IMG/VR virus record: IMGVR_UViG_3300020581_000032
Coordinates: 1-22,910 of that record
DNA: 22,910 nucleotides
Source of the DNA: a virus
Strand: one strand, 5' to 3'
The translations under genes were made by a program, and so were the position numbers. The notes beneath the pieces are model-generated. The model searched no databases and was not told the origin of the DNA. It was given only the letters and a program-made list of their open reading frames with translations. Every line of letters starts with the position of its first letter. Within the stretch, counting starts at the first letter, position 1. Below, piece by piece: positions 6,405 through 22,835 of this stretch.

Positions 6405-7070
6405 TTATAGAAGGCGTCCGAGTAAGCGAGCGAAGTCGATTGGGTCTTGTGCCGCCTTATAAAGGTTGCATTTTTCACAGGTAAGTTGGATATTGCTCCG
6501 GTCATTAGTGCCACCTTTTGACAGGGCGATAATGTGATCTGCGTGATGATCTATTCCAAGTTTTTTACGACAATACGCACACCGACCTCCCTGAGCCTTG
6601 AAAATCTCCTTTATATCAGCGGCCGTAAACGATCCTGGGGCGGCAAGTTCGCGAGCGCGGCGCTTGTGTTTTGCAACCTTAGAATTACGCTTAACCCTTT
6701 CTGGATTATCTTTGGCCCACTGAAGAGTTCTGACTCTCGCTTTCGCATTTACCTCTTCGAGATTTTTAGCGCGATAATCTCGACTGCGTTGTTTTCCCGG
6801 CTCTGGATTTTTCGCATATTGTCTCTTAGTTTTGTTTCTGTATTTCTCTGGATTGGAGGCGTATCTATTGCGCTCACGCTCATTAACCCAATCTCTGTTG
6901 CGCTCCAGCCAAGCATCGCTTGACGCTCTATGCTTAGATTCGTGGGTCTTAGACAAACGCCTGTGTGCGACGCAATATCCGTATAAATTCTCTGGCTTTA
7001 TTTTTTTGCCGCACTCCTTACAGTGACTAGACCTTTCGGGCGCTTCTGTTGTAAGGTTCGAGTTAGCCAC
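6405..7070 (-). CDS. HNH endonuclease, probable free-standing homing endonuclease
   Basis: A 221-aa protein from a GTG at 7070 with a strong AGGAGG 8 bases upstream. The HNH nuclease fold is at residues 160-205: CxxC (C164, C167), the catalytic DHHADHII (HH 175-176, H179), then GGTNDRSNIQ with the central Asn 193, and a second CEKC (198-201) followed by N202. The two CxxC pairs bind structural zinc in this family, and the His residues activate water and bind the catalytic metal. An N-terminal C17/C20/C33/H36 cluster may be another small zinc site. Between the two is a basic, helical region with repeated NPE-type motifs, likely for DNA binding. It interrupts the operon between a virion protein gene and the small 82-aa gene, and is a selfish element rather than part of the virion. 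Confidence 0.92.
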   Translation of the reverse strand: MANSNLTTEAPERSSHCKECGKKIKPENLYGYCVAHRRLSKTHESKHRASSDAWLERNRDWVNERERNRYASNPEKYRNKTKRQYAKNPEPGKQRSRDYRAKNLEEVNAKARVRTLQWAKDNPERVKRNSKVAKHKRRARELAAPGSFTAADIKEIFKAQGGRCAYCRKKLGIDHHADHIIALSKGGTNDRSNIQLTCEKCNLYKAAQDPIDFARLLGRLL

Positions 7071-8065: not shown

Positions 8066-9259
8066 TCATGTGATGTTGACGCATCCTGAAACTACCTTAC
8101 CCGCACCAGAAACAACAATGGCAGTACTGGCCCAGCACCCAGTTACAGCCGTTGGGGAAGTTCCGGCCGAGAATGTAGTGCTTCCAACTTCGCAAGCGCT
8201 GAACATGCTGCCTTTTGCGCTGGTAATCACTATAGGATGGCTAAATACGCAACCTACAAACGTTGTGAAGGCGGTCAGAGTTCCGCCTCCATCATTAATG
8301 GTAACTGAATTTGGTGTTCCGGCCCCAGAATAAGACAAATCACACATGGTAAGATTATTTTCTTGCCCTTTACCGGCGACAACAGGAGTACTCTGAAAAA
8401 ATAGAGCCACAGGGGATGCTAGTTCGTTATCTAGCTTGCATCGTAGATACCAATTAGCACCATGAGAAAATACGTTAAATGAGTTTCCAGTAGCTGTGAC
8501 ATTTTCAAATAAACAATCAGTGGCAAATATATTAATTGCTGCAACTCCGCCCAAAACAGAGCAATCTCTCATTGTCATTGCTACTGTGGTAGAGTCTATT
8601 TCTAGGACGTTAGAAGTTGGCGTTGCAAATGAATTATATAAAAATATATCTTGTGTTGTGCAGTTACCAGCCGTAACGCATGATAAAACTGTAGTGTCTA
8701 TATTGCATTGTATCAAAGAACCTTGAGAAGCAACCCCCTGCAAGATAACTGTCCCGGTGAGATTAAGCGTTGTGTCTATTAAATATGTTTGACCTGGGAA
8801 AAATACTGTACCTCCGTTTATGCCTCCTATGTAATTAATTGCCCCCTGAATCGCCGCGTGGCACTCTCCAGAGCAATCTCCGAACATCTGCGGAGTAACT
8901 GTTGTTAGAGCGAGCCCCCACCACTGACCGTCAGCGGACTGGAATCCACCAGCCGAAGCACCCCCAACTTTCTTGTAGAGTGCCGCGCCATAATCTCCGA
9001 CTGCCGCACGTCCGGCGGTCATAACAAAACTAACAGTCGAGGCTATCGTTGCCGCCGCCGCTGCTGTCTGTGTGGAGAATATCCCCTGTAGTGGTATGCC
9101 GCTATCTTTTAGAAGCTTTCCGGTATTATCGGCAAATGTCGGTATATCTCCAGCCACAGAAGACCCTGGCCCGAAGACATCGCCCTTTACTGGAATCAAT
9201 CCGAACTGGTTTATAACCTTGGCGATCCAGTATGGATTCGGTCGTCCAGTCTGCATCAT
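8066..9259 (-). CDS. Tailspike-like protein with right-handed beta-helix (pectate-lyase fold)
   Basis: A 397-aa protein whose ATG overlaps the preceding stop (ATGA). Residues 1-55 are a virion-attachment module with the common phage pattern VKGDVFGPGSSVAGDIP, then FADNTGKLLKDSG. From about residue 125 (MFGDCSGECHAAIQGAINYI) the sequence switches to a beta-helix typical of pectate-lyase superfamily tailspikes: an AIQxAI helix cap, GGTVFFPGQTYLI, then short strand repeats. About a dozen cysteines are spaced along the rungs (DCSV, TDCLF, MCDL, GCVF, SACEV, GCWA, SGCVN). Such spikes bind and often cleave surface polysaccharide; no catalytic pair can be assigned by eye. No signal peptide is present, unlike three other adhesins in the window. 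Confidence 0.85.
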   Translation of the reverse strand: MMQTGRPNPYWIAKVINQFGLIPVKGDVFGPGSSVAGDIPTFADNTGKLLKDSGIPLQGIFSTQTAAAAATIASTVSFVMTAGRAAVGDYGAALYKKVGGASAGGFQSADGQWWGLALTTVTPQMFGDCSGECHAAIQGAINYIGGINGGTVFFPGQTYLIDTTLNLTGTVILQGVASQGSLIQCNIDTTVLSCVTAGNCTTQDIFLYNSFATPTSNVLEIDSTTVAMTMRDCSVLGGVAAINIFATDCLFENVTATGNSFNVFSHGANWYLRCKLDNELASPVALFFQSTPVVAGKGQENNLTMCDLSYSGAGTPNSVTINDGGGTLTAFTTFVGCVFSHPIVITSAKGSMFSACEVGSTTFSAGTSPTAVTGCWASTAIVVSGAGKVVSGCVNIT

Positions 9260-9696
9260 TGTGTGGACGTAATAATCGTGAGTGGATTATTCGCTCCAGA
9301 CTGGGCTATGCCATTCCATGCCACAGAAACTGCACCAGTCAACGTCAAGTAATCTCCAGGCAATATAAGAAAGGACCCGCCTCTAGTGGAGAATGATGCA
9401 ACGGTCGGACTCTGGCAGATCAGAAGTTCGACCGTATTGCTTGGATTGTGGAAGACTATGTAAGTTCTTGCCGAGTCTGCGGCTATGACCTGTATCGATG
9501 ATGTTGTGAGATTATTGACTGCCGTAACGGTTCCTATAGTAAACGACCCGTCACGCTGGCCAACGGCCACCCACGAACTAAGTTGTTGTACGACCCCCCT
9601 TAGCTGAGTAACAACGTCTTGAGCACCAGCACCAGGAGGGTTGCTGTACTGGTTTGCTGGAGTGCTTCCAGGAATGGCGTTGGTTGAGTCGGTCAT
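9256..9696 (-). CDS. Small beta-rich virion protein
   Basis: A 146-aa protein from an ATG at 9696 that overlaps the stop of the gp10-like gene (ATGA), and it ends in an ATGA overlap with the tailspike. Residues 1-60 include a helix (DVVTQLRGVVQQLSSWVAVG); residues 70-146 form a small beta-sandwich of a kind frequent in phage tails: ADSARTYIVFHNPSN, then GGSFLILPGDYLTLTG and VSVAWNGIAQSG. Family members often sit near the tail tip or on fibre bases, possibly as adaptors for spikes. Its position directly before the tailspike fits a role in attaching it, but this is inference. Confidence 0.75.
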   Translation of the reverse strand: MTDSTNAIPGSTPANQYSNPPGAGAQDVVTQLRGVVQQLSSWVAVGQRDGSFTIGTVTAVNNLTTSSIQVIAADSARTYIVFHNPSNTVELLICQSPTVASFSTRGGSFLILPGDYLTLTGAVSVAWNGIAQSGANNPLTIITSTQ

Positions 9697-11744
9697 CGCC
9701 TACCACACGGTGCAAACCGAAATTTGATAGAGCCGAGTCGGTAAAAACTTCCGATATCATTCGTTGAAATAGTCACGCTCATGAATCTTGCACGGAATCT
9801 CAGGGGTATAAATTCTGTCGCAGAATTCACCGTGTATGGACCATATGTTATGACCGCGTCTCCTTGATAGTTTGTGACGTTGAAAGATATCTGAATTTGC
9901 GCATTTTGAGAGCCAGCAAAGGTTCCGTATTTGAAATCAGGTATAGCCTGATCTACAAATGAGAAGTCTTCGCCTTCTTGGAGATAGAAGAATCCAGTCG
10001 TAAAACTCGAAACCAGCGGCTGACCATCCGCGTCAGGCGTCGTCTCCTGGAGGTAGATTACCCCCGCTGGAGACGCCGCAATCGGCATTCCCAGAGCGGA
10101 CTGGTCGATCCAGGCGGACCTTGCGAGAGGTCCGTAGTCCCACGGAGCCCCAGGCTCGCTGATGTTGAGCTTCACGTATGAGTCGCATTCACCGCTCACG
10201 CTCGCCGCACTGGGATATTCCCAGCCGGCCTCGTTAAACGGCGTATTCGGCATTGCGCGGATATTCTGGAGGAAATTCGTGTTCAGATTCTGGAAAACTA
10301 CATCCCAGACCGGACACGGAATGACCGAAACTCCATTACCGTTGTAAACATAGAAATTTGTGGTCCCCATCCAAAACACACTGCCGCGAAGCTGCTGCGC
10401 CGCGTGTGCTGAAACAAGACCGGCGCCAGCACCGATTTTCGTAAACCCATACACATTTGGAAGACCAACGTAGTTCATCGCCCACAAATCTAAGTCTGTC
10501 CATATCAAATTCACATTCGAGACTGCCGTCCCTCCCATGATCTGTGATCCAATCGGGATCGTGAAGTTACCGGCTTGAGTCTCAGAGGTTGCGGCCCACT
10601 GGAAGAAATTTGATACATCAGACCACTGCACAAGCATCGGCTGCTTCTGGTATCCAATGCCCTGATGAATAGACGACCCCCAAGCTATAAGTATTTGTTG
10701 CGACATTGAAACGAAAATGCCGTTATTAAATATAGGACCAGTGCTTATAATAGTGGAGTTCTGGACTCCTCCTGTTGGGCCCCAATAATAAATACCACCT
10801 CCGCGTGGACAAGATAAGAGGATTTCACCCCAATTGTCCTGCGTCCAGTCTGTTGCAGTAATCGGTGTTCCGGTTTGGCTGGTTGGAGTAATTCCAGTTC
10901 CATAACCACCAGTACCGTATGTCCCGAGACCATATCCGGCCCCAACAGGAGGCGGAGCAAGACTAATGTAATACAGCAATTCAATTGTACCAAAATTCAT
11001 TTGGTGCGTATTCGTAGCGGTCGCCTGGGTAGCCGCAGAAATAGTGAAGAAAGCAGACGGTATCGTTGGGTCTATGCTGACGACAGTATATGCCCCTAGA
11101 ATCGTAATTCCGTTAAATGTAGTCGCAACGTCAAAAACAACGATGCTTCCAACGGATTGACCGTGGTTCTGGAATGCAACAGATACTACAGAACTTCCAC
11201 TGGTAAATGTGAATATCGGCAGTGCAGATGTTGTAGTGGTAGATGTTGCGTTTTTAGGTGCCGTTATCTGATATGAATTAATACCTGTGACTGTTGTAAT
11301 CTGATAGAGACCATCAAGGATTAAGCCACCAACAGATATTGGTGTATTAAAGAACACAGAGTCTGCGACGGTGACATTTGAAATATTATTATCAGTTATA
11401 CTGACAACTGGACTGTTGATTGTGGTTGAGAAATTCGTCCCGCCTGATGCGAAATCAGAGGTAAATATCTGCGGAGTGATGCTGTGTATCAGATTGCTTG
11501 TTATGACAACAAGTGAGGTAGTAGTCCCAATCGAGAGATGACCTAGAGAATTCAAATCCTCCCAGGCATGAAGGTCTCTCGGGACGCCTCCCACTGGAAA
11601 CTGGTAGTATTTTTTGTACCCCCCGTATTTCTGGACCAGACCGTCTCGAAACCGGATCAGAGAGCTACTTGAGTACCCCGCTCGCAAAAGTGTCGGAGTT
11701 CGCTCAGCGTTTACTCCCGGAGTAAGCGTAACGCTACCGAACAT
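9693..11744 (-). CDS. P22 gp10-like packaged DNA stabilization / tail hub protein
   Basis: A 683-aa protein with a TAATG overlap at its start. The N-terminus follows the gp10-type pattern: LTPGVNAERTPTLLRAGY, an RFRDGLVQKYGGY segment, then PRDLHAWEDLNSLGHLSIGT. Residues about 100-245 hold two successive beta repeats (VTVADSVFFNTPISVGG and SVGSIVVFDVATTFNG) absent from the shorter P22 protein, explaining the greater length. The remaining half has motifs of a beta-propeller hub: TDWTQDNWGEILLSCPRGG, QILIAWGS, VQWSDVSNFFQW, WTDLDLWAMNYVGLP. In P22, gp10 binds below the portal and adaptor, seals DNA in the capsid and anchors the tail. Here it lies two genes downstream of an adaptor candidate, consistent with neck and tail-nozzle assembly. 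I am fairly sure of the family, less so of one-to-one equivalence. Confidence 0.8.
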   Translation of the reverse strand: MFGSVTLTPGVNAERTPTLLRAGYSSSSLIRFRDGLVQKYGGYKKYYQFPVGGVPRDLHAWEDLNSLGHLSIGTTTSLVVITSNLIHSITPQIFTSDFASGGTNFSTTINSPVVSITDNNISNVTVADSVFFNTPISVGGLILDGLYQITTVTGINSYQITAPKNATSTTTTSALPIFTFTSGSSVVSVAFQNHGQSVGSIVVFDVATTFNGITILGAYTVVSIDPTIPSAFFTISAATQATATNTHQMNFGTIELLYYISLAPPPVGAGYGLGTYGTGGYGTGITPTSQTGTPITATDWTQDNWGEILLSCPRGGGIYYWGPTGGVQNSTIISTGPIFNNGIFVSMSQQILIAWGSSIHQGIGYQKQPMLVQWSDVSNFFQWAATSETQAGNFTIPIGSQIMGGTAVSNVNLIWTDLDLWAMNYVGLPNVYGFTKIGAGAGLVSAHAAQQLRGSVFWMGTTNFYVYNGNGVSVIPCPVWDVVFQNLNTNFLQNIRAMPNTPFNEAGWEYPSAASVSGECDSYVKLNISEPGAPWDYGPLARSAWIDQSALGMPIAASPAGVIYLQETTPDADGQPLVSSFTTGFFYLQEGEDFSFVDQAIPDFKYGTFAGSQNAQIQISFNVTNYQGDAVITYGPYTVNSATEFIPLRFRARFMSVTISTNDIGSFYRLGSIKFRFAPCGRR

Positions 11745-13406: not shown

Positions 13407-15683
13407 TTACATTTCATATGCCGTACAACTTACATTGGCGACTATTGCAGTCCCGGCAGTAACCGCCGCGAGCCGCAGATCGAACCAATATGCCGTGCCG
13501 GGAGAAAGCCCGGTCGCGACCCCGATATTGGCAAAAGAGACCGTTTGATTTGCCGCTGCCGCCGTCATGTTGGTGCCACCCAAACCCGTTCCAGTCGAAG
13601 CCGCTTGGTTTACAGGTGCGGTACCGGTTCCATAGAATAGGCTGTTGAGGGCACCATCTCCGCTCGTATCATTGGCCATGCCGCCCTGAATTTCCAGGTA
13701 GACACGTGAACTATAGAGTGGCGTAATAGCGCAGGAACTACCTAATCCCATCATCACGCCAGCACCGGTTGCTGTCGTGCCTGTTGGATTTGATGGCGCC
13801 CCTACCATCGTGGCACCGCCGGTCGAGAGCATCGTCACGGAGGCGTTCGGGAACGTGAAGGTGCGGCCAGTCGCCGGCAGCGCCATGGTTGATGCCCCCG
13901 CGCCTGTCGTTGTTAGATTTGCACCCAGCGTGAGCGTGCTTGATCCGTTGTTAACTCCCGTTCCTCCTACGCTCGCCGTCACAATGCCGGAATTAATTTC
14001 CGATCCTGCAATTGATTTGTTGGTCAGTGTGTCCGTGGTAGCGCGCCCCACCAAGGTATCGGTTCCCGCCGGCAATGTGAGTATACCGGCCGCGGTCGCC
14101 CCCGGCGTAAGCGTTGTGGCGCCGCTCGTGGTATTAGCCAGGATGATCTGACCGATGGTCGAGGCCGCCTGCCCTAATGTAAGAGCGCCGGCTGAGATAT
14201 TGGCATTTGTGTTGCCGCTTACCGTATTGGTGCTTGCGGCGTAGTAAGTCAATTGCCCCGCAGTACCAGAGTTTACCGTTCCTCCACCGGCCGCATTGGC
14301 CCAGGAGGCGACACCAGAACCGTCAGTTGTGAGGACTTGACCTCCAGACCCTCCGCTTGTCGGCAGCGTAAGCGTCCACGTCCCGGCGGCGGCGGCCGGC
14401 TGAACGGTCACAGCACCGCTTGTGTTTCCAGCAAACGCCAAAACTCCCTTAGTCGCGCCAGATACGCCCAAAGTGGGAGTGGCCGTGAAGGCCGGGCCAG
14501 ACCCAGCCAAGACCTGACCAGCGGCTCCCGCAACCGTGATATTACCGGTAGCGGTCGTAATTGCCAGTGGAGCACTCGCTGTAACCACAGGAGTCCCGCT
14601 TGCTGTTCCGAAGGTAATCGTAGGAGTTCCAGCGGCAGCTTGTGGTGTAAGAGTTACCGACCCCGAAGTATTCCCCTCCAAGACCACTTGCCCGATTGTG
14701 GTGCTCGCCACGCCCAATGTGAGGGCTCCAGCGCTCATATTGGCGTTTGCGTTACCACCCACAACGTTCGTGGATCCAGGATAATACGCGATCTGCCCAG
14801 CGGTTCCAGTGTTAACCGTTCCAGAGCCACTGATGACATTGCACCCGAAGGCGTGCGTAGAGGTGTTATAGGTAAGGGCATTCGCCGCTGTAGAGCACGA
14901 AAGAAGTGGTACTGCACCTGGAGCGGCCGACCCACCAGTAGCGTTTGCGAGCACGTTATCGGCAGCGATAGAGGCAAGAGATAGGGTACCTGTCGTCGTG
15001 ATAGGGCCACCAGTAAGCCCTGTTCCGCTTGCTACGCTCGTGACTGTGCCGGTAGATGTCAGAGTGTTACACCCAAATCCAGTGTTTGTCGTCCAGATCA
15101 GCGCATTTGACCCACCACTACAGGACGGCATAGACATGGCCGTTGGGACAGATGACCCGGAAGTATTATTTCCAATCACAGTATTAGCGGCGATAGCCGG
15201 GAAATCACCGATTACGATCCCCCTGAAGGCTGGAGTAGTCGCCCCTCCTGAAGTAGGACCAGCCCAGAATGTATTGGCGCTCTCGTTTGCTGATGTAAAG
15301 GTAAGTGTCCCTCCAGATGTAACCGGCGACCCAGACACCGTGAATATCGGCGGGGCGGCGAGAGCCACAGACGTTACTGTCCCGGTGCCAGAAACGGTGA
15401 GCCACGCCGGAACCCCAGAGGAATTCTCGGACAGAATCTGCGTTCCGCTTGAGTTTCCGGGCAGACTCGTCCAGCCAGAGCCAGACCTGTAGATTATCGT
15501 TCCAGAATTTGTCCCATACAGGAAATCGAACAGCTTACTTACCGTTGACCCGGTTGGGACATTTGTAGAGCCGGTCGGATTCGCGCAAATCTGTCCTGTC
15601 GTGAATTGTCCCGTGCAGGCAGCAAATGCCGAGGCCGGGGCAAGTGACAGAATTGCGGCAAAGACAAGAGACCCGATCTTCAT
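13407..15683 (-). CDS. Repetitive tail fibre with N-terminal signal peptide
   Basis: I start at ATG 15683, which shares one base with the upstream stop (TAATG), giving 758 aa. A TTG five codons upstream would overlap that gene by 16 bases and spoil the signal peptide. Residues 1-22 (MKIGSLVFAAILSLAPASAFA) have a basic n-region, hydrophobic core and an AxA-type cleavage site, then ACTGQFTTGQIC. The body consists of fibre modules: GTGTVTSVA twice, TGLTGGPITTTGTLSL, an internal duplication (residues 287-350 and 467-530), and TDTLVGRATTDTLTNKS. The last 110 residues form a globular tip (SSRVYLEIQGGMAND, GDGALNSLFYGTGTAPVNQA, GTAYWFDLRLA) common to phage fibres. There are eight Cys. A trimeric adhesin is likely; the Sec signal is unusual for a virion protein assembled in the cytoplasm. 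Confidence 0.85.
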   Translation of the reverse strand: MKIGSLVFAAILSLAPASAFAACTGQFTTGQICANPTGSTNVPTGSTVSKLFDFLYGTNSGTIIYRSGSGWTSLPGNSSGTQILSENSSGVPAWLTVSGTGTVTSVALAAPPIFTVSGSPVTSGGTLTFTSANESANTFWAGPTSGGATTPAFRGIVIGDFPAIAANTVIGNNTSGSSVPTAMSMPSCSGGSNALIWTTNTGFGCNTLTSTGTVTSVASGTGLTGGPITTTGTLSLASIAADNVLANATGGSAAPGAVPLLSCSTAANALTYNTSTHAFGCNVISGSGTVNTGTAGQIAYYPGSTNVVGGNANANMSAGALTLGVASTTIGQVVLEGNTSGSVTLTPQAAAGTPTITFGTASGTPVVTASAPLAITTATGNITVAGAAGQVLAGSGPAFTATPTLGVSGATKGVLAFAGNTSGAVTVQPAAAAGTWTLTLPTSGGSGGQVLTTDGSGVASWANAAGGGTVNSGTAGQLTYYAASTNTVSGNTNANISAGALTLGQAASTIGQIILANTTSGATTLTPGATAAGILTLPAGTDTLVGRATTDTLTNKSIAGSEINSGIVTASVGGTGVNNGSSTLTLGANLTTTGAGASTMALPATGRTFTFPNASVTMLSTGGATMVGAPSNPTGTTATGAGVMMGLGSSCAITPLYSSRVYLEIQGGMANDTSGDGALNSLFYGTGTAPVNQAASTGTGLGGTNMTAAAANQTVSFANIGVATGLSPGTAYWFDLRLAAVTAGTAIVANVSCTAYEM
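14094..14285 (-). repeat. Fibre module duplication, downstream copy
   Basis: It encodes fibre residues 467-530 (GTVNSGTAGQLTYYAAST onward) and is a diverged direct repeat of 14634-14825. Shared anchors are GTVN(S/T)GTAGQ, N(T/A)NANxSAGALTLG and STIGQ, followed by a Thr-rich strand segment. The two copies differ at many codons, so the duplication is old compared with the 36-bp repeat at the left end. Confidence 0.85.
14634..14825 (-). repeat. Fibre module duplication, upstream copy
   Basis: It encodes fibre residues 287-350 (GTVNTGTAGQIAYYPGST onward), the partner of 14094-14285. The two are separated by about 350 bases that encode a related but less regular module (GVLAFAGNTSGAVTVQP). Confidence 0.85.
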
Positions 15684-16162
15684 TATGTTTGGTACCAACT
15701 CGCTCCAGTTACAGGGAATGGATTTATCGTCACCCAGCCATATGCGTTGTCTATAACGATGCTTGATTGGCCATCCACAAGTTGACCGCCCGTGAATGTG
15801 ATCGTTATTTGATTCGTCCCATTACCAGCATCACCTTTGCCGTCTTTAATGATCACTGGGAACGGGTACGCCATCGCACTCGCAAGAGGAACCACTATCG
15901 AAGTCGGAGAACCTATCGTCTTGTCTACGATGATCCTCGTGTCGGTCGATAGCATGTTATATGTCGAACCAGAAGTGATAAGCGTAGTCTCAAGAAACGG
16001 GAATGCGGCAAAGAACGATGCAAGAACAGCCGTAGAAACCTGATATGTATTCCCGAGCGCAGCGGTACCAGGAGACACAATCTCCATAACCTCGCCGCCA
16101 TTTAAGGCTATATTCAGAATATTCTGACTAGTAATTCGTCCATCCAGAGGGATTGCTGCCAT
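15683..16162 (-). CDS. Small beta-rich structural protein
   Basis: A 159-aa protein starting at an ATG that directly follows the TGA of the upstream gene. It contains NTYQVSTAVLASFFA, then STYNMLSTDTRIIVDK and SIVVPLAS, followed by VIIKDGKGDAGNGTNQITI, LVDGQSSIVIDNAYGWVTI and a terminal ASWYQT. This IKDxxGDA..NxITI..DG pattern is common in phage tail appendage proteins and suggests a compact beta-sandwich or beta-helix cap. It lies between the Cys-motif protein and the signal-peptide fibre and shares its stop with the fibre's start, so it may be the virion-proximal partner of that fibre; this is inference. Confidence 0.78.
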   Translation of the reverse strand: MAAIPLDGRITSQNILNIALNGGEVMEIVSPGTAALGNTYQVSTAVLASFFAAFPFLETTLITSGSTYNMLSTDTRIIVDKTIGSPTSIVVPLASAMAYPFPVIIKDGKGDAGNGTNQITITFTGGQLVDGQSSIVIDNAYGWVTINPFPVTGASWYQT

Positions 16163-16552
16163 TCACGAACTCGTTTCGTATTGTAGAGCGCGAGCAGTCT
16201 CGCCGTCCTGCGTGCACCGGATCATCTGAGGTCCAGCCGCCCATGGCGGTCCTTTTGGATCGGCAAATTGTGTAATCCTAATGGTTTGCTCCTCGTATGC
16301 AAAGTTAGGTGTCCTAGCATTAAGGACTGGCATGGGATCTGGTGGCAGGATAATGGTGCGAAATTGCTCATTCGGCACATCTAGACAATTAACCCCCGTG
16401 CAAACCAAAAGACCTGTATTGTATAATTTTGTACCGGCCCACTCCATCTGCCATTGCAAATCTTGTAACTGGAACCAAAATCCGCAGCGCGAGCACTCAC
16501 CAAATGCACGAGGATCGTTAGGATCAACTTTCGCTCTGCCGTGAGGTCTCAT
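16163..16552 (-). CDS. Conserved phage HGRA protein with paired Cys motifs
   Basis: I start at ATG 16552, which overlaps the endonuclease stop as ATGA and gives the typical N-terminus MRPHGRAKVDPNDPRAFG (129 aa); a start 11 codons earlier would run into the endonuclease. The protein then shows CSRCGFWFQLQDLQWQ, EWAGTKLYNTGLLVC, CLDVPNEQFRTIILPPDP. A CxxC and a CxxxxC resemble a zinc ribbon or knuckle. The pattern HGRA...CxxCG...LxWQxxW...VC..C.D.P..Q.R.I.LPPDP is a recurrent conserved phage hypothetical found beside neck genes. I know of no established function. A structural neck component or assembly factor is plausible from its place between adaptor candidates. Confidence 0.85.
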   Translation of the reverse strand: MRPHGRAKVDPNDPRAFGECSRCGFWFQLQDLQWQMEWAGTKLYNTGLLVCTGVNCLDVPNEQFRTIILPPDPMPVLNARTPNFAYEEQTIRITQFADPKGPPWAAGPQMIRCTQDGETARALQYETSS

Positions 16553-17574
16553 TTGGAAATTCTTTGAAACGTGAGCCCGGCACACCTATGCCCGCGATCA
16601 ATAGCAGCAAAGAGCGAACCCATTGGTAAATCATAGGCTCTCGCGGCGTTACTTATACTGTCGAACTGATGCCCAGTATCTAAACACACAATAGGCTTCT
16701 TAATTTTCTTTTGTCCGCGAGAAAGGGCCGCCAAAACTTCTCTTTTCTGACTGGCGATCTCATCCTCAGTCCATACCTTCTTTTTAACCGCCTCACGATC
16801 TGCGTAACGAAAAGACAGTCCGCTGTTGGTTTCTCCTCCTCTTTGGCATATTTGAATAACACGCATTTTCTCTATCTCATACGCCGATGCCGCAAGCGTA
16901 ACGCTTGAATATTCCTTGCTGTCAGTAATGCACACTACTGGCCGACACTTGTCCTTATTTCTCCTTGCCTCCCAGCCGGCGCGTCTATCGTTCAACGCAC
17001 TAAGTTGACGGTCAATTTCATCTTTTGATAGAACCAAATCAGAATATGCAAATGATTTCCCCCCGCACTGAATTTGCCTTCCGTGTAGCATCTCTCCAAT
17101 GCCTCTTTTACTAATACCGTAGTTGTCGGCAGCGCTTTTAATGCTCTTAAAAAGAAGACCGTCATTTAGACATACGATAGACCTGAATTTGTGTTCATGG
17201 TTGTTGGCTGCATAACATTGCGGACTGGGTTTACGCCCCTTAAGCGCCCTGGACGTTTTCTCAAGCCATTCCTTGGTCCGCACAAGACCCACCATACCCT
17301 GACCGCCTCTGGTTATGTTATATTCAGGCCTCAGGAGAGCTATCAGTCTAATTTCCTCTTTCATGAGATCGGTGTAATTCTCTGCGGTTGATATAATCGT
17401 CCATTCAAATGCGTCCTCGCCGTATTTCCTTATCGCGGCATTAAATACGTGGCATCCCCTGCGCTTACCCTTAGCGTCAGAATAATGCTTAGACCGCCTG
17501 ACCTTCAGAGCGCGCTTTGTTGCGCCAATGTAGCGTTTTCCGTTTTTTATATTTGTTGCCATGTAAATAATCAT
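16549..17574 (-). CDS. GIY-YIG homing endonuclease with modular DNA-binding repeats
   Basis: I choose ATG 17574 (341 aa) because GGAGG lies 6 bases upstream; an in-frame ATG six codons earlier has no such site. Residues 1-90 form the GIY-YIG nuclease: IIYMATN, KRYIG, the Arg helix ALKVRRSKHYS, a Glu within MKEEIRLIALL, and the closing PEYNITRGGQG. Residues 100-118 (KEWLEKTSRALKGRKPSP) look like a NUMOD3 element. Three repeats follow at about 131-177, 211-258 and 293-338, each with (R/K)(S/P)(I/V)VC(L/I), an S(I/V).xAA.AY helix-turn-helix core and a closing aromatic strand, as in NUMOD1/IENR1 modules. It is a free-standing selfish gene that cuts a cognate site to spread. Its stop overlaps the next gene's ATG. 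Confidence 0.93.
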   Translation of the reverse strand: MIIYMATNIKNGKRYIGATKRALKVRRSKHYSDAKGKRRGCHVFNAAIRKYGEDAFEWTIISTAENYTDLMKEEIRLIALLRPEYNITRGGQGMVGLVRTKEWLEKTSRALKGRKPSPQCYAANNHEHKFRSIVCLNDGLLFKSIKSAADNYGISKRGIGEMLHGRQIQCGGKSFAYSDLVLSKDEIDRQLSALNDRRAGWEARRNKDKCRPVVCITDSKEYSSVTLAASAYEIEKMRVIQICQRGGETNSGLSFRYADREAVKKKVWTEDEIASQKREVLAALSRGQKKIKKPIVCLDTGHQFDSISNAARAYDLPMGSLFAAIDRGHRCAGLTFQRISK

Positions 17575-17578
17575 TTTG

Positions 17579-17599
17579 TGCCTCCGAATCATTGAGGCA
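17579..17599 (-). promoter_or_regulatory. Hairpin masking the ribosome binding site of the GIY-YIG gene
   Basis: In the transcript, TGCCTC (17599-17594) pairs over six bases with GAGGCA (17584-17579) around a 9-base loop. The Shine-Dalgarno GGAGG occupies 17585-17581, so four of its five bases lie in the stem. Such occlusion limits translation from long read-through messages, as known for T4 I-TevI. Whether a shorter transcript that frees the site exists cannot be seen. Confidence 0.6.
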
Positions 17600-17606
17600 G
17601 ATACTA

Positions 17607-18287
17607 TTATCTAAAAAATGATGCGAGTCCAGGGGTAATATACAAACCCACATTCTCTGTATCTTGCTTCATAGCCAACCCAAATGCAATGTCGTAATCT
17701 GCCTTGCGCTGCTGTTCCAAGGCAGGCGCATAGTGCCTTGAAAGTCGATGTGCTAGTCCAGCCGTATATGCATCAAGGAACCTGTACTGAAGATCAGCAT
17801 TACCTCCCTGACCGGGAACGGCGTCCTGTATTTGACGGTATCTCCAATATGTAACAACGTATGTATTCGCGCTGTCTGGCGTCGGCCAAAATGTAATTGT
17901 CGGGTTCACCGTCCTCAGAAAGAAGAACGATGTCGGGAACCCTTGCTGTAGAGGAGTCGCTAGTGAGGCATAATCAGTCCGAGAGAACGGCAGAAGTAGC
18001 CTATTGCTTCCTCCGGTCGGAGTCACATACAGGTCGAGTATCATTATCGTATTTGCCGGAACGTTGTATGTCGCCGTTCCCGATATGAGATTTATGGTCT
18101 GCGTATCCTCAAGCCATAATTCCAACCCCGAGTTAACCCACTCAGCCTGAAGAAGATTTGCCTCAAGCCTAGCATCAAACATATGCTGGGCCACTATTGA
18201 TGGCGGCTTAACCTGGATACGAGAGAACGCATTAAGAAACAGACTACCGAGTTCTGGACCGAAATTATATGTGCCGCTAGTAGTCAT
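17607..18287 (-). CDS. Neck/adaptor-like structural protein
   Basis: A 226-aa protein whose ATG overlaps the preceding stop (ATGA), ending with tandem stops TAA TAG. It shows a pattern I know from conserved phage neck proteins: an initial TTSGTYNFG, a helical FLNAFSRIQVKPPSI, then ARLEANLLQAEWVNSGLELW, followed by TATYNVPANTIMILD, FSRTDYASLATP, QGFPTSFFF, the diagnostic TITFWPTPD, YVVTYWRYRQIQD, and a helical C-terminus with LDAYTAGLAHRLSRHY. The WPxPD motif and flanking helices are common in proteins coded near portal and capsid genes. A head-completion or adaptor role is likely but the exact homologue is not certain. The homing endonuclease follows 32 bases downstream. Confidence 0.75.
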   Translation of the reverse strand: MTTSGTYNFGPELGSLFLNAFSRIQVKPPSIVAQHMFDARLEANLLQAEWVNSGLELWLEDTQTINLISGTATYNVPANTIMILDLYVTPTGGSNRLLLPFSRTDYASLATPLQQGFPTSFFFLRTVNPTITFWPTPDSANTYVVTYWRYRQIQDAVPGQGGNADLQYRFLDAYTAGLAHRLSRHYAPALEQQRKADYDIAFGLAMKQDTENVGLYITPGLASFFR

Positions 18288-20461
18288 TGGCAGGTAGTTC
18301 CATATCCGGACGGAATCGCATCAGGTGAAGCAACTTTAGCAGCCAAACTTGAAGTACTGTATGTCATATTGGCGTATCTCACTGCTTCATATTCAGGAGA
18401 CTGTCCGCGATAAGTGCCGAATTTCCAATAGTATTGCTGCGTTCCACTGGTCGGTGTCTCTCCTGTAACCCCATTGAAGTTTACCACCTGTATCCCGTTC
18501 TGCCATACATGAATCTTTCCCTGCGCTCCCGTGGGGTCGAAATTAAGTTGTAGAACGTAGTTATACCATACACCCCTCAACTGTTTCCATTCATACGCAA
18601 CGGTGACTGCTTGATTTGCATCAGAAACGTATTCAACTCTTCCAATATCTCCTATCTTCGTATTCATATCAAAAGGAGGTGACCCACCACCGGCGGGGTT
18701 TATAGTCTGGTGAACCTGTCCATTAAAGAACCAGTTAGAGGTAAGGGCTGCCCCCGGCTCTATGCACACTGAATAAGACATCCACGCATCTGTTGCGGTA
18801 GCGAATTGAGCATTACCGGTAGCCCCAGTCGATCCATCAAGCTCTACGCGCTCTGAACCTCCAAATGTCCCGATAGTACAATCGTCGTCCACACCACAAT
18901 TATTGGCATACATATTAAACCGGATCATGTTTCCAACACTACCGAATTGAATTGGTCCGGTCACACCACTTGAATTGAGACCGCTTTCAAATCCATAAAG
19001 ATTCTGTGTCGGCCCTCCAGAAAATGCTGGTAGAGTTCCGCCAACCTGAGCAGAGAATCCAGCAGCCTGCGTAAAATTACTCCATCCTGAATCTGGGATC
19101 TGATCTGTAATAGACGCATTATTTGTTTTTTGCGTGGATGACTGGAAAAAATCACTCCCGAGTTTTGAATTGTATAGTTTAATCTCTGTTGTGTATGTGG
19201 TTGGTCCCGCTGTAGAGCTACCTATATACCACGTCTGAGGAGAAGGCGCAGTACCTCCGCTATATTGCAATGCGCCACCATCGCACACGACAGAAACAGT
19301 ACCATTTCCCCAAGAAATGCCAAATATAGCCGGCAGCGCCATGCTCTGATTCGCAGAAACTAGAGCAACATTACCGCAAATAGAGTATGGCGGAGCGCCG
19401 CTACCCTCTCCTCCGTCGTTGAAAAACATGGCCATCGCAGCATACTGCCAAAGATACCCATTCGATGGAGACCCGGCGAAATACGGGCTCGAAATCTGAT
19501 GACGGAAATTACCCGCCGCCGCCCCAGAAGTCGCAAAAACCGCAGTGGCCGCAGAGGCATTCAAAAGCGTAGCGGCCCCATTAGTGAAGCTAACCGCATC
19601 TGATTGTCTTGTCGCTATAGTCCCGCTTGTAAGGATCGGAGACGTGACCCACACCCTTGGTTCTATCTGTCCAAAATCAGCCGCTACAACATCTCCATTT
19701 GTCACAATTCGTATGCACAAAGTCGGATTTATCGTAGTAGCGTCGTAGGTAATAACGAATCTCTGCCAAGAGGCTGAAAGAGAGCCGCTACCTTTTGTAA
19801 CCGGAGACCAGACTGTCCCAGAGTGTCCAGGAACAGTCCCCTCCATGGAGATGTCAACTTCTCCGGAGCCGGACACTCGCTTAAGGAACACACTCCCAGT
19901 GAACTCAGCGAATGGCGGGTTAGACGACGTTACCGATTGACATACCGTTCCGTTACTGGATGTCGCAGTAAGGGTGCTGGCTGCATTAGGAGTATTATCA
20001 ATTCCAACTGCCGTCTTCGCCACAGTGACGTTGCTCTTTGTCCACGCAGACTGGGACATATCCCTGGACCACAGGATCGGATTTGTTGTCGCCGCAGTCT
20101 CATATAGTAGACCTAAATCTGTAACCCTAGCAGTATTGTTTGGAAAGCTAGACCAGTGACCATCACTCCATTGGGCGTATCCACCGTTATTTGTAGCAGA
20201 AAGGCAGGCTGTAAGTGTTGTGCAGTTCTGACCAAGATAAACACCGGAAACAAAATTGAGATCAATGGTCGGAAGAGTCAGGCCGAATAGTTGAGCCACT
20301 TGACCCAGGGTGGCCTTGAAATCACCACCATTATGCCCAACGGCGACAGAATCCTCAGACGATAAATTTGGCACAGTAGGAAGGCCCGGAATCCCACCAG
20401 ACTGCCCAAATGCAGGCACAGTCAATAGTCCAAGCATTACTAGAAATCTAATTAAGGCCAC
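18284..20461 (-). CDS. Tail adhesin/depolymerase with signal peptide, carbohydrate-binding and polysaccharide-lyase domains
   Basis: A 725-aa protein from a GTG at 20461 that overlaps the small gene upstream by 10 bases; no clear ribosome binding site is seen. Residues 1-20 (ALIRFLVMLGLLTVPAFGQ) look like a Sec signal peptide. Residues 34-60 (SSEDSVAVGHNGGDFKAT) match a tail-attachment module. Residues 128-290 resemble a carbohydrate-binding sandwich (NPILWSRDMSQSAWTKSN, SWQRFVITYDA). A middle beta domain follows. From about 450 to 705 is a polysaccharide-lyase jelly roll with three motif clusters of the PL7/PL13 type: RVEL (538-541), QVH (582-584), and YWKFGTYR (678-685), plus VWYNYVLQLN. 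In these enzymes Arg, Gln/His and Tyr act in beta-elimination of uronate polymers. There are ten Cys. A tail depolymerase is likely; the substrate is unknown. Confidence 0.82.
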   Translation of the reverse strand: MALIRFLVMLGLLTVPAFGQSGGIPGLPTVPNLSSEDSVAVGHNGGDFKATLGQVAQLFGLTLPTIDLNFVSGVYLGQNCTTLTACLSATNNGGYAQWSDGHWSSFPNNTARVTDLGLLYETAATTNPILWSRDMSQSAWTKSNVTVAKTAVGIDNTPNAASTLTATSSNGTVCQSVTSSNPPFAEFTGSVFLKRVSGSGEVDISMEGTVPGHSGTVWSPVTKGSGSLSASWQRFVITYDATTINPTLCIRIVTNGDVVAADFGQIEPRVWVTSPILTSGTIATRQSDAVSFTNGAATLLNASAATAVFATSGAAAGNFRHQISSPYFAGSPSNGYLWQYAAMAMFFNDGGEGSGAPPYSICGNVALVSANQSMALPAIFGISWGNGTVSVVCDGGALQYSGGTAPSPQTWYIGSSTAGPTTYTTEIKLYNSKLGSDFFQSSTQKTNNASITDQIPDSGWSNFTQAAGFSAQVGGTLPAFSGGPTQNLYGFESGLNSSGVTGPIQFGSVGNMIRFNMYANNCGVDDDCTIGTFGGSERVELDGSTGATGNAQFATATDAWMSYSVCIEPGAALTSNWFFNGQVHQTINPAGGGSPPFDMNTKIGDIGRVEYVSDANQAVTVAYEWKQLRGVWYNYVLQLNFDPTGAQGKIHVWQNGIQVVNFNGVTGETPTSGTQQYYWKFGTYRGQSPEYEAVRYANMTYSTSSLAAKVASPDAIPSGYGTTCQ

Positions 20462-20787
20462 TGTACAACACCAAGATTTACAAAGCCAGAAGTCCAGGCA
20501 GTAACAACCAACCTTAAGGCTGAAATAGGATACACAATGTTGCTGTATGCGCTTTGCGTAAGGCCATTAAGAACAGAGTGATTGACCCAGTTAGTTATCG
20601 CAGCCTGCGGATAATCTCCTGTGACTTGTACCGAATATGTTAGAGCCCCAGATACCGTACATATAAGCCCTAGAGACCCTATGGGCTGTTCCGCTAATTG
20701 TCCTATCAAAAACGACTGAGAGGTATATGGAACTATTGGAGAAGACGACCCGACTCCTCCAAGGGTTGCTCCTATATAAACCTTCAT
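20452..20787 (-). CDS. Small beta-rich virion protein between two depolymerase genes
   Basis: A 111-aa protein beginning MKVYIGATLGGVGSSSP from an ATG that shares one base with the upstream stop (TGATG). The body is beta-strand-rich (SQSFLIGQLAEQPIG, LTYSVQVTGDYPQ, LRLVVTAWTSGFVNLG). Short proteins of about 110 residues of this shape recur in phage tail regions as caps or adaptors, but I cannot name a function. Its base composition matches genes to its left, whereas the gene that feeds into it is distinctly richer in GC, so a composition boundary lies exactly at this junction. Confidence 0.72.
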   Translation of the reverse strand: MKVYIGATLGGVGSSSPIVPYTSQSFLIGQLAEQPIGSLGLICTVSGALTYSVQVTGDYPQAAITNWVNHSVLNGLTQSAYSNIVYPISALRLVVTAWTSGFVNLGVVQWP

Positions 20788-22835
20788 CAGTTGTGCGCCG
20801 GATCAGCTAGTGGCGTCGTTTCTAGCGCAGACAAGTCACTCACCCCGTACTTGGCCGTGCAGTCAGAGCCCTGGGAGCACACCTGCATGTTCCCATAGCG
20901 CACGCCAAAGGTCGGGAGGTTGTTCCCCGTCTCGCGATATATTCCGTACTTCCAGTAGGCCGCGTTGTTCGTCCCGTTGCCGCCGAACAGCGAGGCGCCG
21001 GAGTGACTCGCGATCTGCACCATCGTCCCTTCGGTGACGGTGTCGAGCCACACATTGAACGTGTCATTCGTGCCGCTCGTAGATGTTCCTACCTGATAGA
21101 CGAAGTGATACCAGCGCCCCCTCGTGATCGCCACGCCGGTCGTGGCGCTGCTCTGGGTCGCGGTGGTCGCGTTGTTGGTGTAGACGAACCACGTGTCCGA
21201 CACGCTGTTCGAGTTGGACATCGTGTTGAAGATGCAGCAGATCCCGCCCGCCACCGTGTGCATCTGGCCGTTGATGTTCCACGACGACGTGTACGCGGTC
21301 CCAGGCTCGATGTAGACCGCGTAGGCGATCCAGAATGTCGTGCCGATCGAGAACTGAGCTGAGCCGCCGGCACCGTCCACCTCGGAGCGATTGGTACCGT
21401 CCCATGCATCGGCGAGACCGTTGATCTGGAACCGCCAGTTGTCCCCAAGCCGGCCGGCCGCTGTGGAGCCGTTAGTTGCCTGCCACTGCGTATAACTGTT
21501 CCACGACGCCTCGGAGTTGTAGGCGTTGCCGTTGACCGTGATGGCACCGACGCCGGGTGGGTTCGGAGCGAAGCCGCCGAGCTGTATCTGGTTCCAGTTC
21601 CATCCGTCTCCGAGTGGGTTCGTGAGCGCGACCGACGCGGCGGCTCCGGTCGTGATTCCCCAGTAAGATACCTGATTGGCCGAGATGGAATTTCGCGATG
21701 TCTGGGTACCCGAGGCAACGAGCGCCTCCACAAACGTGCCGGGCGTCCCGTTGCCGGCGGCGTCACCCATGACGTACAGGCCGACCGCGTTCGGATAGGT
21801 CGGAGTGCCCGACCCGGTGCTCATAAACTGCGTGCCGCCGTTCCACCGTAAGATTCCACCGGTCGAGTAATCGAATTGCGTCAGATTTTGCCCGCGCCAG
21901 ACGCCTCCGAACCCCTCTGCGTTACCATTGTTGCTGCCGTTTATGTTGTTTGCGAGAACGTCCGGCGCCGCGTTGTTTGACAGACCCCACCGGGAATCAC
22001 TGGCCGCGCTCGATGTCGTGGTCGGGTAGACGACGCTGGCGTAGTTGAAATTTGCTGTCGTAATGTCCTCTCCGAAGGACATCACCATGAACGTTTCAAC
22101 CGTCGCCGTCTTGTAGGAGGCGCTGTCGGCGGCCTTGAGGTTGCAGGCAGATAGACACCCGAACAGGCATGGCAGTGACGACCCCTGGCACGTCGGGTAA
22201 TACCCGAGTTGATCGGCCAATGTAGCCTGCGATGCGTCGTTGGCCCCGGCTTGATCATACAGCTTCGACGCGCCGCAGTTCGTCAGGAACAAGGTCGCGG
22301 CGCCGGCATTGCCGTCGATGCCGAATCCGGAGCCGGTAAGCGCGGCGAGATTCGTATTGGCACCAACCGTGATATTGACGCCCTCGCGAAACATAAGCTC
22401 GCTGCTCGCGGTCGTCGCCGTAACTGAGCTGTTGCCGGCCGCATAGAACACCGGGCTGGGGCCGGCGTTGAACACGTGGATCACGGAACCTGATGGGAAG
22501 GCGACCCTGGTTGACGCGGTGACGACGCTGAGCGTCGCGGTGCCGCAGAGGCTGGATGAGGCCGTGACATCCGGGTCGCACCCGACGAAGCCAATGTCCA
22601 GCGTCGTGCTGTCGGAAGATCGCGTGAGTTGCACCGCCTTGCCGGCGTAGGCAGCACGGACCTTGCGCAGCGAGTAGGCCACGGTCCACGCGCCGGGCGA
22701 TGCCGCGAAGGTGTCGAGGACGCCTGTAGAGCATGATGGAGCCGCACCGCTTGCAGCGCCAGAGAATGGTACAATCTGGGCTCCAGCATTGGGCGGCAGA
22801 AATAGAACTGAGAGAGCGATCAAAAGGCGTAGCAT
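20787..22835 (-). CDS. Tail adhesin/depolymerase with signal peptide and polysaccharide-lyase domain
   Basis: A 682-aa protein whose ATG shares a base with the stop of the upstream gene (TGATG). Residues 1-19 (MLRLLIALSVLFLPPNAGA) form a signal peptide. Residues 40-103 and 181-215 resemble the two halves of an arabinofuranosidase-B-like concanavalin fold (AYSLRKVRAAYAGKAVQL, SSDSTTLDIGF, then LYDQAGANDASQ). Between them, about 104-180, is a small beta unit of phage type (STRVAFPSGS, SSVTATTASSEL, NTNLAALTGSG). A LamG-like region follows. Residues about 450-655 are a polysaccharide-lyase jelly roll with RSEV (483-486), QMH (524-526), RGRWYHFVYQ and YWKYGIYR (627-634). Twelve Cys are present. 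Composition is GC-rich compared with the genes to its left. A depolymerase role is likely; substrate unknown. Confidence 0.82.
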   Translation of the reverse strand: MLRLLIALSVLFLPPNAGAQIVPFSGAASGAAPSCSTGVLDTFAASPGAWTVAYSLRKVRAAYAGKAVQLTRSSDSTTLDIGFVGCDPDVTASSSLCGTATLSVVTASTRVAFPSGSVIHVFNAGPSPVFYAAGNSSVTATTASSELMFREGVNITVGANTNLAALTGSGFGIDGNAGAATLFLTNCGASKLYDQAGANDASQATLADQLGYYPTCQGSSLPCLFGCLSACNLKAADSASYKTATVETFMVMSFGEDITTANFNYASVVYPTTTSSAASDSRWGLSNNAAPDVLANNINGSNNGNAEGFGGVWRGQNLTQFDYSTGGILRWNGGTQFMSTGSGTPTYPNAVGLYVMGDAAGNGTPGTFVEALVASGTQTSRNSISANQVSYWGITTGAAASVALTNPLGDGWNWNQIQLGGFAPNPPGVGAITVNGNAYNSEASWNSYTQWQATNGSTAAGRLGDNWRFQINGLADAWDGTNRSEVDGAGGSAQFSIGTTFWIAYAVYIEPGTAYTSSWNINGQMHTVAGGICCIFNTMSNSNSVSDTWFVYTNNATTATQSSATTGVAITRGRWYHFVYQVGTSTSGTNDTFNVWLDTVTEGTMVQIASHSGASLFGGNGTNNAAYWKYGIYRETGNNLPTFGVRYGNMQVCSQGSDCTAKYGVSDLSALETTPLADPAHN

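Follow-up and report, generated by a model that had tools for sequence, protein, structure and literature searches.

Sec-type leaders and even cysteine numbers in candidate tail adhesins of a short-tailed phage group

The window analyzed here, the whole 22,910-base stretch of virus DNA (IMG/VR record IMGVR_UViG_3300020581_000032), carries a minus-strand morphogenesis module of the short-tailed phage type. The module encodes a P22 gp10-like "stabilization" protein, phrog_2941 and phrog_12985 proteins, a DNA ejection protein, a collar fiber, and a leaderless pectate-lyase-like spike, together with three genes, 13407-15683, 18284-20461, and 20787-22835, whose products begin with Sec-type leaders (Table 1). 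All three reading frames were confirmed at the coordinates given in a first-pass annotation of this DNA, and its counts of 8, 10, and 12 cysteines were exact, with no cysteine falling within a leader. Homing endonuclease genes of the GIY-YIG and HNH types were found within the tail module (16549-17592 and 6405-7070), and the protein encoded at 885-2606 carries an N-terminal tandem repeat, TDLPDAPWATPS, in its sequence. GC contents of 57% (13407-15683) and 62% (20787-22835), compared with 45 to 50% in most adjoining genes, suggest recent acquisition of these two genes.

Table 1. Leader genes, their parts, and neighboring tail-module genes in the window
Feature	Position	Strand	Evidence or remark
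Leaderless pectate-lyase-like spike, contrast case	8066..9259	-	13 Cys (odd)
P22 gp10-type "stabilization" virion protein (phrog_3287)	9693..11744	-	E 5e-57; relatives annotated "phage stabilization protein"
Leader-bearing fiber-like adhesin, 758 aa, 8 Cys	13407..15683	-	Leader-bearing relatives L001, L044, L049, L051, L052, L060, L122, L127
N-terminal two-cysteine module CTGQFTTGQICANPTGS, residues 23-39 of 13407-15683	15567..15617	-	Conserved in 9 family members
Predicted Sec signal peptide MKIGSLVFAAILSLAPASAFA(A) of 13407-15683	15618..15683	-	Score 8.7; 0/500 shuffles
Stand-alone docking stub of 159 aa without Cys or leader; carries docking motif and XD1-like beta domain	15683..16162	-	Docking profile match; predicted model
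CxxC Zn-finger-like tail-module gene	16163..16585	-	Precedes docking gene in relatives; synteny anchor
Conserved tail-module gene (phrog_12985)	17607..18287	-	Context
Protein of 725 aa and 10 Cys with leader and C-terminal polysaccharide-lyase domain	18284..20461	-	GTG start
PF14099 polysaccharide lyase domain, residues 525-689 of 18284-20461	18395..18889	-	E 5.6e-11, 43.2 bits, cutoff 29.9
Predicted Sec signal peptide MALIRFLVMLGLLTVPAFG of 18284-20461, cut after 17 or 19	20405..20461	-	Score 4.85; 5/500 shuffles
Protein of 682 aa and 12 Cys with leader and C-terminal polysaccharide-lyase domain	20787..22835	-	ATG start
PF14099 polysaccharide lyase domain, residues 471-637 of 20787-22835	20925..21425	-	E 5.1e-11, 43.3 bits
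Predicted Sec signal peptide MLRLLIALSVLFLPPNAGA of 20787-22835, cut before Q	22779..22835	-	Score 8.2; 0/500 shuffles

Leaders were scored with a rule-based scorer of our own, built on n-region charge, h-region hydropathy, and the residues at −3 and −1, and calibrated on 124 annotated Escherichia coli K-12 genes from three regions. All 26 Sec or lipoprotein precursors in this set scored at least 4.6 and all 68 cytoplasmic proteins at most 2.1; false passes over 4.6 were confined to 4 of 30 inner-membrane proteins. As the first-pass annotation had proposed, Sec/SPase I-type leaders were predicted on all three window genes, against scores of no more than 0.6 for the other 16, and each was compared with 500 trials in which residues 2 to 41 were permuted. 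The leaders combine a basic n-region, a hydrophobic core, and small residues at −3 and −1, features that are weaker in 18284-20461, whose leader starts with GTG and ranks last among the three.

The ATG of 13407-15683 lies at 15683 and overlaps the upstream stop as TGATG, with an alternative TTG five codons earlier. The scorer placed the cut after residue 22, although a cut after residue 21 (AFA-AC) is equally possible. In the two-cysteine module that follows, both cysteines and the N two residues past the second are invariant across nine family members; in L080 (relatives are denoted by L numbers) the two cysteines are missing as a pair. The closest homolog, in L001, has kept the leader in drifted form, and its next 17 residues are nearly identical. 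All three products had been described as fiber or lyase modules, and this can now be divided: 18284-20461 and 20787-22835 each match the PF14099 polysaccharide lyase profile at 43 bits, over its curated cutoff of 29.9, and the third is repeat-rich and fiber-like. A leader-bearing relative of 20787-22835 was identified at L127:1166-2437 (31% identity; E value, 4e−5). In the L127 virus record (103.9 kb), six genes of adhesin size with leaders lie no more than 9 kb from the Zn-finger gene, and one of them encodes 22 cysteines. The domain at residues 38 to 218 of 20787-22835 also occurs on a leaderless protein, L004 2625-4778, amid the morphogenesis genes of another phage. An AlphaFold model of 18284-20461 made from one sequence was unusable (pLDDT, 34), and a PDB sequence search with the two lyases and three other leader proteins gave no match. 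The spike at 8066-9259, earlier set against the three as lacking a leader, does lack one but is also cysteine-rich (13), though with an odd count.

The first-pass annotation had also proposed a survey of metagenomic relatives for conservation of the leader. Homologs of the gp10-like and Zn-finger proteins led to about 190 loci, almost all of them in metagenomic viruses, and the gp10-like gene served as the marker for placing relatives. A fixed filter (score, hydropathy, charge, and a length of at least 150 aa) was passed by 15 of 4,455 shuffled N-termini (0.34%) and by 44 unique leader proteins, the three from the window included. Once their leaders were removed, 39 of these had an even cysteine number, 3 an odd one, and 2 none; among the relatives only, which were not the source of the hypothesis, the same filter gave 36 even and 3 odd. 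The two without cysteines were judged false positives, as were proteins of the MRPVTVSVGP type. The three odd-numbered proteins are encoded outside the tail module, ∼8 kb downstream from the gp10-like gene, have the appearance of membrane or unrelated proteins, and were excluded post hoc. Without them, the tail modules of relatives contain 36 leader-bearing proteins of adhesin size beyond the three in the window, all with even mature cysteine numbers. The survey thus found that leaders recur and that every tail-module leader protein has an even mature count. For comparison, genes in these loci that lack a leader and encode two or more cysteines had even counts in 372 cases and odd counts in 229 (Fisher P = 2e−6 against the leader set). 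The 44 leader proteins fell into 28 separate sequence clusters, 25 without an odd member, so the parity does not arise from repeated counting of one family, and it was stable across a range of thresholds.

In Gram-negative bacteria, exported proteins have a known preference for even cysteine numbers (PMC7678975). Cysteine density was 1.46 per 100 aa in the leader proteins and 0.60 in leaderless ones, and among homologs of 13407-15683 the median was 1.1 with a leader and 0.4 without (P = 0.004; n = 6 and 6). Leader proteins showed classical n/h/c regions and A-x-A-type sites, often with Gln at +1. In seven proteins the leader itself holds a single cysteine, and all seven are odd in total and even once the leader is removed, a pattern that points to leader removal and an oxidizing compartment and would otherwise be hard to explain.

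Leaders were present in 13 of the 63 loci with at least 6 kb of upstream sequence (loci not deduplicated). On the tree of gp10-like proteins, their presence and absence required at least eight changes, which suggests that the trait has often been gained, lost, or exchanged. Isolated relatives, recognized by the gp10-like gene, have mostly Alphaproteobacteria and cyanobacteria as hosts, and the five examined had no leader adhesins. No relatives were found in bacterial genome contigs and no 13407-type leader adhesins on plasmids. Searches of 11 virus records, possibly fragments, gave no match to PF01323 (a phage-coded DsbA) or PF00589 (integrase), and likewise none to terminase PF03237. Twin-arginine-like leader motifs were seen in L008 1298-2005 (NQRRGFLF) and L182 11608-12678 (ISRRKLLV), possibly for Tat export, and the tail region of a spring-water relative (L029, MW202675.1) encodes, at 3443-3850, a protein annotated as "nuclease-like" that carries a clear Sec leader.

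The bodies behind the leaders resemble virion adhesins. Fiber repeats are common to leader proteins and leaderless phage fibers, and leader proteins of relatives match PHROG tail fiber, tailspike, and baseplate families; glycine-rich, lectin-like, GDSL esterase, pectate-lyase-like, and PF14099 domains were found among them. Residues 182 to 729 (548 residues) of the L060 protein are homologous to a Kuttervirus tail fiber/tailspike such as Sajous1 gp136 (27% identity; E value, 3e−13). The likeness lies in the body, as the Kuttervirus protein has a long N-terminal region before the matching part, where the putatively exported L060 adhesin has a Sec leader and a two-cysteine module. Most leader genes lay on the upstream side of the gp10-like gene (22 of 575 upstream open reading frames, versus 3 of 284 downstream; P = 0.03).

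How such proteins relate to the tail was approached through a 33-column docking motif that opens 82 leaderless proteins and, in relatives, is often encoded by the gene after the Zn-finger gene. The docking gene is long, with a fused adhesin, in 34 of 42 leaderless loci and a stub in the other 8, including L003, in which the homolog of 13407-15683 is cut by the contig end and its leader end is not visible. Of the 11 leader loci, 10 have a docking gene that encodes a stub of 145 to 175 aa (P = 2e−5 versus leaderless loci), a count that takes in L001 and L049, whose stub was not called as the next gene. Each of the nine adhesins that carry the two-cysteine module has such a stub in its locus, and the window has the matching order of Zn-finger gene (16163-16585), stub (15683-16162), and leader adhesin (13407-15683). 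The leaderless fibers of L040, L041, L065, and L069 share the position after the Zn-finger gene and the fiber repeats but are single chains with an N-terminal docking motif, no leader, and few cysteines. On leader proteins the docking profile scored no better than on shuffled controls; a docking motif noted by eye behind the leaders of 18284-20461 and an L039 protein did not beat shuffles and was dropped. From these comparisons, the leader proteins appear to be halves of tail adhesins, detached and exported through Sec.

A model of the stub (pLDDT, 79) predicted an XD1 fold, aligning with residues 80 to 175 of CBA120 TSP4 (VIA-align Z, 11.9; root mean square deviation, 2.4 over 95 residues) and with T4 gp9 (Z, 9.9). 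TSP4, gp9, and gp10 are tail anchors that carry other fibers; in contrast, the 159-aa stub chain ends after XD1, without the partner-binding XD2 and XD3 and without an adhesin body, and its presumed adhesin partners have Sec leaders. In TSP4, XD1 is described as a spacer without the trimeric partner-binding faces of XD2 and XD3 (PMC8825819), and adhesin binding to the stub is accordingly put forward here as a hypothesis.

Several other explanations were weighed. That the leaders are chance hydrophobic starts or products of misassigned start codons would accord with the weaker, GTG-started leader of 18284-20461 and the few false positives in the survey, yet so few shuffled N-termini pass the filter, the leader is retained among diverged homologs, and the parity signal does not depend on the scorer, making this explanation extremely improbable. 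Hydrophobic N-termini can have other roles, and the first-pass annotation had listed an uncleaved helix that docks to the tail. Although nothing specific favors it, an uncleaved leader could insert into tail or membrane as particles assemble in the cytoplasm; we consider this very unlikely given the classical leader architecture with frequent Gln at +1, a parity that is even only without the leader in 7/7 informative cases, a high and even cysteine content unexpected in a reducing cytoplasm, and a docking motif absent above shuffled controls. Receptor-masking lipoproteins of phages exist, and exported adhesins might similarly block receptors at the envelope, preventing superinfection or readsorption of progeny to debris. 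Exported phage envelope proteins such as lambda Lom (PMC12309495) give this some footing, but it is unlikely for large fiber or enzyme proteins of 300 to 1,000 aa, often several per phage, and no lipobox pattern appears to be conserved: the 13407-15683 leader does have FAA-C, but without Leu at −3, and most homologs have the cysteine at +2 behind Q or D.

A more serious alternative accepts export and proposes enzymes or adhesins that never join the particle but remove the exopolysaccharide surrounding an infected cell or debris, letting progeny spread. Bacterial PF14099 enzymes are typically exported, and two of the window proteins have such lyase domains; GDSL esterase, lectin-like, or pectate-lyase-like domains in others, and leader proteins devoid of the docking motif, would likewise suit this role. 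The genes nevertheless lie in a neighborhood of virion genes, for the most part on the upstream side of the gp10-like gene, their bodies are homologous to virion fibers and a tailspike, and a docking gene without a fused adhesin goes with the presence of an exported adhesin. We regard a purely nonvirion role as possible, at distinctly less than even odds.

The interpretation we prefer, with a probability of roughly 0.75, is that adhesins or depolymerases of the tail cluster are made as Sec precursors, cleaved, and oxidatively folded in the periplasm, detached from their tail anchors. Export had been one of several options in the first-pass annotation and is now well supported by the recurrence of leaders in relatives and the even mature cysteine numbers of all tail-module leader proteins. 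Leader type, mature cysteine parity, synteny with docking stubs, and the homology of the bodies to tail fibers and tailspikes are the sequence evidence behind this reading; actual export and periplasmic disulfide formation are inferred. The three window genes would be translated as Sec precursors, signal peptidase would remove the leaders, and the mature adhesins and lyases would gain disulfides in the host periplasm. The phage group would alternate between a single-chain fiber, with docking domain and adhesin together, and a split form, in which the short leaderless docking protein (15683-16162) could assemble on the tail in the cytoplasm and the adhesin part (13407-15683, likely also the two lyases) would be exported. 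After lysis, exported adhesins may attach to stub-bearing virions, a step that we propose tentatively and rate a little under even. The P22 tailspike and T4 fibers are tail adhesins able to attach to finished particles in vitro, making such late joining physically plausible. The complete two-compartment build, with a cytoplasmic tail anchor and a disulfide-stabilized periplasmic adhesin united only after lysis in this group of short-tailed phages, is likewise conceivable, if not quite an even bet.

Host Sec export of phage proteins has precedents in exported endolysins (fOg44 Lys44 and SAR endolysins; PMC6116005) and in Lom (PMC12309495), but these are lysis or envelope proteins rather than tail adhesins. 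No report of a Sec-exported tail adhesin was found in the openly available papers and collections searched. The common view is that the receptor-binding proteins of tailed phages both fold and are assembled within the reducing cytoplasm. If the reading given here is true, the recurring class with leaders and even cysteine numbers would represent either extracellular completion of virions with disulfide-stabilized fibers or a secretome of depolymerases encoded in the tail operon. Such adhesins would then be annotated and expressed differently, and the class would point to a reliance of the phages that carry them on the disulfide-forming (Dsb) system of the host.
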